A stretch of 5,226 nt of DNA from Sporomusa sp. (GTDB lineage: Bacteria; Bacillota_C; Negativicutes; Sporomusales; Sporomusaceae), in contig JAQSXM010000273.1 of the NCBI GenBank assembly GCA_029256645.1, forward strand, positions 1 to 5,226, in the 5' to 3' direction. Shown here piece by piece: positions 7 through 190 of this stretch. The notes beneath the pieces are model-generated. The model searched no databases. It had not been told where the DNA came from and saw only the letters and a program-made list of their open reading frames with translations. The first letter of the stretch is position 1; every line of letters starts with the position of its first letter. A program made the translations under genes and the position numbers.

Positions 7-51
7 TATAGAAAACCCCACAGAATCACAGTCATGTGACTCCGCAGGGTT
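7..51 (-). terminator. Terminator-like hairpin with T-rich tail
   Basis: Read on the minus strand, AACCCTGCGGAGTCAC (36-51) pairs over 16 positions with GTGATTCTGTGGGGTT (14-29) around a 6-nt loop. The pairing has no mismatch but includes four G.U pairs. The stem runs directly into TTCTAT, giving a UUUUCUAU tail. The ACCC of its upstream strand can alternatively pair with GGGT at 55-58 to form a small GGGT-AGCA-ACCC hairpin, so two exclusive folds exist, as in attenuators. A transposon right-end hairpin would look similar. Confidence 0.5.
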
Positions 52-122
52 GCTACCCACGTGTAAGGCTTGCAAAGCCTCTATGCAGCTCCAGCATCGC
101 TACTGGTATGCACACTCACCTT
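8..122 (-). ncRNA. Candidate structured RNA (small RNA or leader), unidentified
   Basis: On the minus strand, about 115 nt between the candidate promoter and a terminator-like hairpin can fold into successive stems. A CCAG/CTGG hairpin (91-106) may be extended by TGCA/TGCA (84-87 with 109-112). AGGCTT/AAGCCT has a 3-nt loop (66-80). A possible closing helix is GUGU/ACAC (112-115 with 61-64), although it shares one base with the TGCA pairing. Last comes a 16-bp stem (14-51). The final stem contains four G.U pairs that exist only in the minus-strand transcript, which argues for RNA rather than DNA function. All minus-strand frames here are quickly closed by stops. I do not recognise a known riboswitch, T-box, 6S or tmRNA signature. 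The string CGTGGGTAGCAACCC before the last stem loosely recalls the 3' end of TnpB-associated omega RNAs. Identity unresolved. Confidence 0.4.
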
Positions 123-149
123 TGGGAATATTTTTGCATAATATTCCCA
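123..149. repeat. Palindrome covering the promoter spacer and -10 box
   Basis: Arms TGGGAATATT (123-132) and AATATTCCCA (140-149) are exact complements around a 7-base centre. The palindrome fills the stretch from the -35 box to the predicted start of transcription. That is where a repressor would block RNA polymerase, so an operator is the simplest reading. A subterminal hairpin of an IS200/IS605-type left end is an alternative. Confidence 0.75.
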
Positions 150-158
150 GAATGTCAA
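130..158 (-). promoter_or_regulatory. Candidate sigma-A promoter pointing left
   Basis: On the minus strand, a perfect TTGACA -35 box (153-158) is followed by a 17-base spacer and AAAAAT (130-135). The -10 box is immediately preceded by TGC, an extended -10. The -10 matches TATAAT at four of six positions, including the key A2 and T6. Predicted transcription would start near 122-124 and run into the hairpin-rich segment and then out of the window to the left. Confidence 0.5.
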
Positions 159-163
159 GAACA

Positions 164-190
164 GACTCAAGGGGACGGTTCTCTTGAGTC
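164..190 (+). repeat. REP-like imperfect palindrome
   Basis: Arms GACTCAAG (164-171) and CTTGAGTC (183-190) pair perfectly. On the plus strand the stem continues inward through G.T, G-C, G.T and A-T to give 12 pairs with a CGG loop; on the minus strand the two wobbles become A.C mismatches. The core GGGGACGGTTCTC is of a type I recall as dispersed and associated with REP/RAYT (Y1 transposase) elements in Bacillota. Copy number in this genome cannot be seen. It lies 24 nt beyond the regulator stop and could also weaken read-through. Confidence 0.55.

Follow-up and report, generated by a model that had tools for sequence, protein, structure and literature searches.

A divergent ykkC-scaffold RNA from Sporomusa, with its own promoter and terminator, as a likely transcriptional ON riboswitch

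The ykkC RNAs are described as an extreme case in which one scaffold with a nearly constant core serves several unrelated ligands (PMC7266159). Subtype 2 comprises the sensors of ppGpp (2a), PRPP (2b) and (d)NDP (2c) together with the orphan 2d, for which EamA transporters are reported as targets (PMC7266159). In the structural account given in PMC6031431, the P3 loop of ykkC docks into P1 and helps to build the pocket. Here we analyse an RNA from Sporomusa sp. that shares this scaffold, lacks sequence signatures that define ykkC, and is likely to act as a riboswitch in front of genes with a presumed role in defence against toxic compounds.

On the minus strand, the window, by which we mean the whole stretch of 5,226 nucleotides that was analysed, contains a partial dipeptide/nickel-type ABC transporter operon, alongside it a gene matching an M29 peptidase family, and the gene of an XRE/cupin regulator (214-765). 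Beyond the regulator gene, 158-10 of the same strand is taken up by a promoter followed by a folded RNA and its terminator. The features of this unit are given below; counts refer to the 12 loci introduced further on, and A6 is an alignment of these loci. The helix names are those of this analysis, and the structure paper splits P1 otherwise (PMC6031431).

153..158, minus strand: -35 element TTGACA (11 of 12 loci have TTGACA and one TTGACT)
130..138, minus strand: extended -10 (TG + 1 + AAAAAT) with a spacer of 17; TG stands before the -10 in 10 of 12 loci
116..119, minus strand: P0 5' strand GUGA (48/48 cells paired in 12 loci)
109..114, minus strand: P1a 5' strand UGUGCA (helix paired in 100% of cells; 5 of its 6 pairs vary on both sides)
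107..108, minus strand: 5' side of the internal loop, UA, as in ykkC
91..106, minus strand: P1b, a short variable hairpin replacing the ykkC GGGUUCC...GGACC module (alignment and motif counts)
88..91, minus strand: 3' side of the internal loop, GAGC, as in ykkC
82..87, minus strand: P1a 3' strand UGCAUA (alignment A6)
66..80, minus strand: P2 hairpin AGGCUUUGCAAGCCU (each of the 6 pairs varies on both sides in at least one locus)
61..65, minus strand: junction strand UACAC (invariant in 12 loci; common to ykkC)
56..61, minus strand: P3 5' strand CGUGGG, the antiterminator (rule-based pairing test and folding)
43..49, minus strand: P3 3' strand CCCUGCG, doubling as part of the terminator 5' arm (pairing test and folding)
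36..39, minus strand: P0 3' strand UCAC, doubling as part of the terminator 5' arm (alignment A6 and folding)
14..51, minus strand: intrinsic terminator, 17 bp (pattern scan and folding)
10..15, minus strand: terminator tail UUUUCU, its first two U inside the stem

The earlier note, made from the letters of the window, had described a TTGACA, a 17-base spacer and an extended -10, all on the minus strand, and a sequence scan bears this out; a similar promoter is found in 12/12 loci, with a TTGAC -35 and spacers of 16-17 bases. The UUUUCU tail and the four G.U pairs reported for the last stem also stand, although that stem has 17 pairs and not 16. The note had further taken the RNA to be specific to the minus strand, in agreement with the folding of positions 1-122, where the minus strand gives a z of -3.81 (0/200 shuffles as good) vs -1.17 on the plus strand (28/200). 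Neither the promoter nor the terminator match is significant alone, since the window holds 7 promoter-like sites against 5.8 expected and 9 terminator-like sites against 4.8 expected. What sets the unit apart from chance is its recurrence, as the same trio of promoter, RNA and terminator is found in 12 loci, and the observation of a predicted transcription unit is upheld. Transcription is predicted to start just before P0, which begins 7-12 bases past the -10 in 11/12 loci and 23 bases past it in one. The edge of the window lies 9 bases past the terminator tail, and an mRNA would run left, out of the window.

Two further repeats lie close to this unit. The -10 of the RNA promoter is bracketed by an inverted repeat of 9 bases (window 124-148), made up of GGGAATATT and AATATTCCC; this is a possible operator that, by eye, the other copies lack. 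The hairpin GACTCAAGGGGACGGTTCTCTTGAGTC at window 164-190, behind the XRE/cupin gene, has a core, GGGGACGGTTCT, that is found once more, in L089; we presume that it is perhaps a dispersed REP-like element.

Copies of the RNA were found in stages. A BLAST search of 28 genomes of the order of Sporomusa malonica (E <= 0.1) gave copies in G019 (89%), G011 (84%) and G006 (71%), each with a promoter in front and a terminator behind, while a fourth hit, in G009, spans 22 bases only and was not counted as a copy. A covariance model, R1, was built from the window and these three copies. Over 380 genomes of the class, under stricter filters, R1 gave no further member, but it did reach three loci with an Rfam guanidine-I match of 54 bits, below the gathering score of 63. 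Its matches under about 36 bits look, by eye, like bare terminators. A second R1 match in G019 (L045 1501-1608, 35 bits), not recovered by the later model, is probably a strong terminator only, but may be a structured leader. With ykkC loci at 36 bits beside a probably terminator-driven match at 35, the R1 search of the class proved nothing alone. A second model, R3, describes the junction only and leaves out the terminator 3' arm. At E <= 0.05 over the 380 class genomes, R3 returned the three known genomes plus four canonical ykkC loci (34-39 bits). Over 398 genomes of the phylum it added six new loci, spread over five genomes, at E <= 0.01, and in the 19 genomes of the order of G474 it had matches in three genomes, with new loci in G765 and G766. 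Further R3 searches, with matches in 1/5, 2/5 and 3/97 genomes, recovered known loci only. In total, 12 loci are known, the window and 11 others in 10 genomes, and the flanks of 11 are known. The loci in G765 and G766, those in G019 and G011, and both in G608 may lack independence.

Sporomusa malonica (L001, G001) is 91% identical to the window over 5016 bases, and one of its regulators is 96% identical to the XRE/cupin regulator. No RNA match was found there at the same site, where a convergent gene, read by eye, stands in its place. Similarity searches with the RNA in plasmids and phages gave no match; the whole window gave one 50-base match among plasmids, which lies inside the ABC genes and is irrelevant to the RNA. 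In viral contigs, two 5' patterns and an exact 32-mer were found in 0 stretches; a short 3' pattern occurred in 81, and a scan of the 80 listed loci with R3, 686 kb in all, yielded 0 matches at E <= 1. No report of the motif was recognised in a literature search that covered main texts in part. Sporomusa sphaeroides has reportedly been the subject of a Term-seq study.

Compensatory changes among homologues were found, on an alignment that leans to structure because R3 fitted it: in A6, with its 12 loci, pairing holds in 95.3% of 297 cells, and 18/26 pairs vary on both sides. None of 500 shuffles of A6 reaches any of the five measures, and slid partners give 27-42% paired. In a MAFFT alignment of four sequences, 5/26 pairs change on both sides, a count that 20/500 shuffles reach. 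P3 was also extracted by rule from the 12 sequences, and 58/60 of its pairs are standard, with replacements that include U-A to A-U and G-C to A-U; 15/5000 strand shuffles are as good. The terminator does not explain this pairing because the P3 5' strand lies outside it. For P0, 48/48 cells are paired and one pair of the helix changes on both sides, and 848/5000 strand shuffles pair as well because P0 hardly varies. The pairing figures for P1a come from A6, as the rule-based extraction misplaced this helix in six loci and was not used. A MAFFT alignment of the 12 loci shows GUGAG, UA, GAGC, UACACG and CGGAGUC as near-invariant or invariant. P1b is free in length: the aptamer reaches 106 nt in G433, and the second G608 copy, with six bases where P1b would stand, has 72 nt.

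The hairpins and terminator that the earlier note saw make up one of two competing folds, the other being a four-way junction. When the RNA is folded up to the P0 3' strand, P0 is in the minimum-energy fold in 11/12 loci (in G006, which departs from this, the P0 probability is 0.53), and the probabilities of P3 and P1a are 0.51-1.00 and 0.39-0.93. In the full-length RNA, P3 and P0 have a probability of 0.00 in 12/12 loci, and 11 or 12 bases of the 12-base P3/P0 3' strand are tied up in the terminator. The junction and terminator folds are mutually exclusive, since both need the 3' strands of P3 and P0. These energy calculations leave aside ligand, tertiary contacts and kinetics.

We compared the RNA with 60 ykkC loci of the order of Sporomusa malonica, one of which could not be cut by rule; 56 distinct 3' halves were aligned. 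RF00442 is frequent in this order, with 130 matches in 27/28 genomes at E <= 0.1, most of them below the cut-off, which is exceeded in 11 genomes. By eye, the new RNA matches the ykkC 3' halves in GAGC(G/U)GCACAG, P2, UUACAC, GUGGG and CCCnGCGGA. The match by sequence only is weak: an nhmmer profile of the 3' half, built from 50 sequences with 6 atypical ones left out, gives its top rank to G019 (E 1.2) and fifth place to the window (E 4.1), and G011 and G006 are absent from its best 25. A covariance model, R2, was built from 18 ykkC subtype-2 aptamers with the P1b interior replaced by N; 26/60 loci were prepared, and the 18 used were picked for a P3/P0 type resembling the new RNA. Over 54 loci (309 kb), R2 places the first four copies on top at 39.8, 39.6, 39.3 and 36.2 bits (E 2e-9 to 3e-8) and its next best at 9.4 bits (E 4.9), a strong test but not a blind one, because the aptamers were hand-chosen after the match was already suspected. 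When the four loci were scanned without filters, the fifth-ranked match had 8.5 bits. R2 recovers 9/12 loci at 22-42 bits and misses G474, G471 and G463.

The statement that this RNA matches no riboswitch must be divided accordingly. At gathering thresholds Rfam 15 matches nothing in the whole window, and within the 158-10 unit there is no match up to E 5, with two weak ones at 163-191 instead; RF00442 likewise reports none of the 12 copies (window up to E 5, the other 11 up to E 10). A ykkC subtype-2 model with P1b masked, however, does match. GGGUUCC in P1b is found in 0/12 copies vs 58/60 canonical ykkC loci, and an exact AUAAAA in the P3 loop in 0/12 vs 44/60. NNAAAA is present in 58/60 canonical loci, and a run of four A stands in the P3 loop of 3/12 copies (G006 and both of G608, by eye). 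UACACG occupies the place in 12/12 copies where 53/60 canonical loci have ACACCG, and the S-turn region of P3 (G95/G96 in ykkC 2a-2c) reads, by eye, CCCUGCGG or CCACGG vs CCCGGCGG. Thus, failing the defining sequence signatures of ykkC, the RNA should not be filed as guanidine-I or as a known subtype, but the model comparisons indicate that it is, by descent, a divergent member of the ykkC scaffold. In ykkC the P3 loop and P1 are docking partners, and here both partners may have changed together.

Two observations on individual loci may be added. The ykkC loci with CUAUUGGCACAAAAAG in P3 (L129, L130, L133 and L135-L137) look like a distinct subtype. L241 3002-3073 has CCUA...GAGCGG like canonical ykkC, six bases for P1b and an A-rich P3 loop, and this copy is possibly an evolutionary intermediate.

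In 11/11 loci with known flanks, the next downstream gene runs in the same direction as the RNA. The first such gene encodes a GNAT in five loci, an ABC or MFS exporter in four, a methyltransferase in one, and an unassigned protein in one. A GNAT acetyltransferase comes first in G019, G011, G474, G471 and one G608 copy, an MFS gene behind the other G608 copy, and an ABC exporter ATPase in G765, G433 and G766 (G766 by eye, with a frame that looks interrupted). In G433 the next open frame of at least 60 codons lies about 550 bases downstream of the RNA. The ABC permeases of G433 and G765 match ABC2_membrane_6, and that of G471 matches nothing. In G463 a methyltransferase gene is followed by one for an S66 peptidase, which in the PDB matches proteins of the MccC/MccF family best, and the downstream protein of G006 has no Pfam or NCBIfam match. 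None of the GNATs scanned reaches a curated NCBIfam cut-off; the G019 GNAT has as its best PDB match 1nsl, a probable acetyltransferase, with MccE lower at E 8.6e-8. This GNAT has 21 matches in 14/28 genomes of the order; close ones are confined to G019 itself and G011 (76%), and both genomes carry the RNA. In G019, an EamA transporter gene follows the GNAT gene (L022 3348-4226). Taken together, the gene assignments suggest defence against toxic compounds as the common downstream theme.

We consider it likely that this RNA is the 5' leader of an mRNA and works as a transcriptional ON riboswitch, a putative ligand sensor that is a divergent variant of the ykkC subtype-2 scaffold. What computation provides is a conserved unit, two exclusive folds, covariation and a relation to ykkC. 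On the proposed mechanism, the transcript would begin just before P0, and the nascent RNA would first fold into the four-way junction of P0, P1, P2 and P3. A ligand holding P0 and P3 would then block the terminator so that the downstream gene is read, probably for the disposal or export of a toxic compound, whereas in the ligand-free RNA the terminator would form with the 3' strands of P3 and P0, and transcription would stop. The same ON-switch geometry is reported for PRPP riboswitches (PMC5912903). With the P1b module gone in 12/12 loci and the A-rich P3 loop in 9/12, the mode of ligand sensing probably departs to some degree from that of the known subtypes.

It is possible that the RNA is a candidate new riboswitch class on the ykkC scaffold, sensing a toxic, possibly nucleotide-like competitor compound. 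We hold this tentatively, at a little short of even chances, since 3/12 copies keep the A-rich P3 loop. More speculatively, the ligand could be an aminoacyl-nucleotide antibiotic of the microcin C type, an idea suggested by the RimJ/RimL-like GNATs (one with MccE among its PDB matches), the MFS exporter and the MccC/MccF-like S66 peptidase found among the loci. Genes of these kinds belong to the resistance set for microcin C-type antibiotics. In the genomes with the RNA, a microcin C-like set is not together in any one genome, and the S66 gene is seen once only.

The ON riboswitch must first be weighed against a reading in which the RNA keeps the known ligand of a subtype 2 RNA (ppGpp, PRPP or a nucleoside diphosphate) or that of 2d, and the changes in P1b and the P3 loop merely rebuild the docking contact. 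The 12 loci retain, bar a few exceptions, P0, the AG before P1a, UA/GAGC, UACAC and the CGGAG before P0, and A5, G6, G48, C75, A76, C77, G104 and G105 are named among the contacts of a ppGpp-binding mutant in PMC6031431, the mapping being by eye; for the 2d ligand in particular, the EamA gene behind the GNAT in G019 corresponds to a 2d target as given in PMC7266159. The downstream genes, however, are neither of amino-acid or purine biosynthesis, as published accounts describe for 2a and 2b, nor NUDIX as for 2c, and the S-turn region of P3 differs, by eye, as detailed above. We regard such retention of a known ligand as rather unlikely.

The earlier note had left undecided whether the unit is a stand-alone sRNA or an attenuated leader, and the evidence points to a leader: 11 copies lie upstream of co-directional genes, and a terminator competes with a conserved junction. 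A trans-acting sRNA with its own promoter and terminator would account for the completeness of the unit and for the distance of about 550 bases in G433, and the window's downstream gene lies outside the window. This explanation is improbable, given that the antiterminator pairing is conserved, that the next gene is co-directional in 11/11 known flanks, and that its function class recurs though the genes differ.

A leader could also act as a ribosome-mediated attenuator, in which a leader peptide stalls under antibiotic and frees a resistance-like gene. GNAT, ABC, MFS and methyltransferase genes would fit such control, and RUG is present at aptamer position 8 in 11/12 loci, but it sits in P1a, which accounts for it. 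The frames have differing lengths of 4 to 28 codons, one locus has no RUG there, and the ribosome-binding sites were judged by eye; given the predicted start, an aptamer beginning 7-12 bases past the -10 in 11/12 loci leaves scant room for such a site. Stalling control thus appears quite improbable. There is still less reason to expect a decayed ykkC riboswitch without ligand, retained merely as a terminator, and we judge it very improbable: loss of the P1b signature in 12/12 copies and of the A-rich P3 loop in 9/12 would suit decay, but 12 loci in several orders keep the junction through compensatory changes, and GUGAG, GAGC, UACACG and CGGAGUC are nearly invariant. Membership in guanidine-IV or its Gd4v variant, which have a like size, a terminator switch and GNAT genes among their targets (PMC9788692), is scarcely credible, as guanidine-IV consists of two hairpins joined by a pseudoknot (set apart here by description), has no conserved ACG trimer in the account of PMC7736828 where UACACG is found in 12/12 copies here; SugE-type and transaminase genes are absent from the first downstream genes read or scanned.

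An ON riboswitch of this kind is of interest in three respects. The variant keeps the junction and drops the P1b module, and thereby tests which parts of the scaffold ykkC needs. Judged by the neighbouring genes, the RNA may sense a compound that is toxic or antimicrobial. The RNA is also small, with a defined promoter and terminator, and is directly testable.

Among described systems, toxin-sensing leaders of the yjdF type have another fold and other genes than the new RNA. The likeness to them is one of probable detoxification control, as such leaders are presented in PMC7266159. Gd4v is likewise a riboswitch variant with a terminator and GNAT genes among its targets, but it has a two-hairpin pseudoknot architecture as described in PMC9788692 and PMC7736828. 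The guanidine-I riboswitch (RF00442) shares P1, P2, P3 and the ACAC strand, whereas the new RNA has P0, lacks the P1b signature and is silent to RF00442. The closest system is ykkC subtype 2 in its forms 2a, 2b, 2c and 2d. Both have the order P0, P1a, UA/GAGC loop, P2, UACAC, P3 and P0, and in both the terminator draws on the 3' strands of P3 and P0. The new RNA differs in having no GGGUUCC in P1b and, in 9/12 loci, no four-A P3 loop, in carrying CGGAG before P0 where ykkC has CGGAAGG (by eye), and in preceding defence-like genes.
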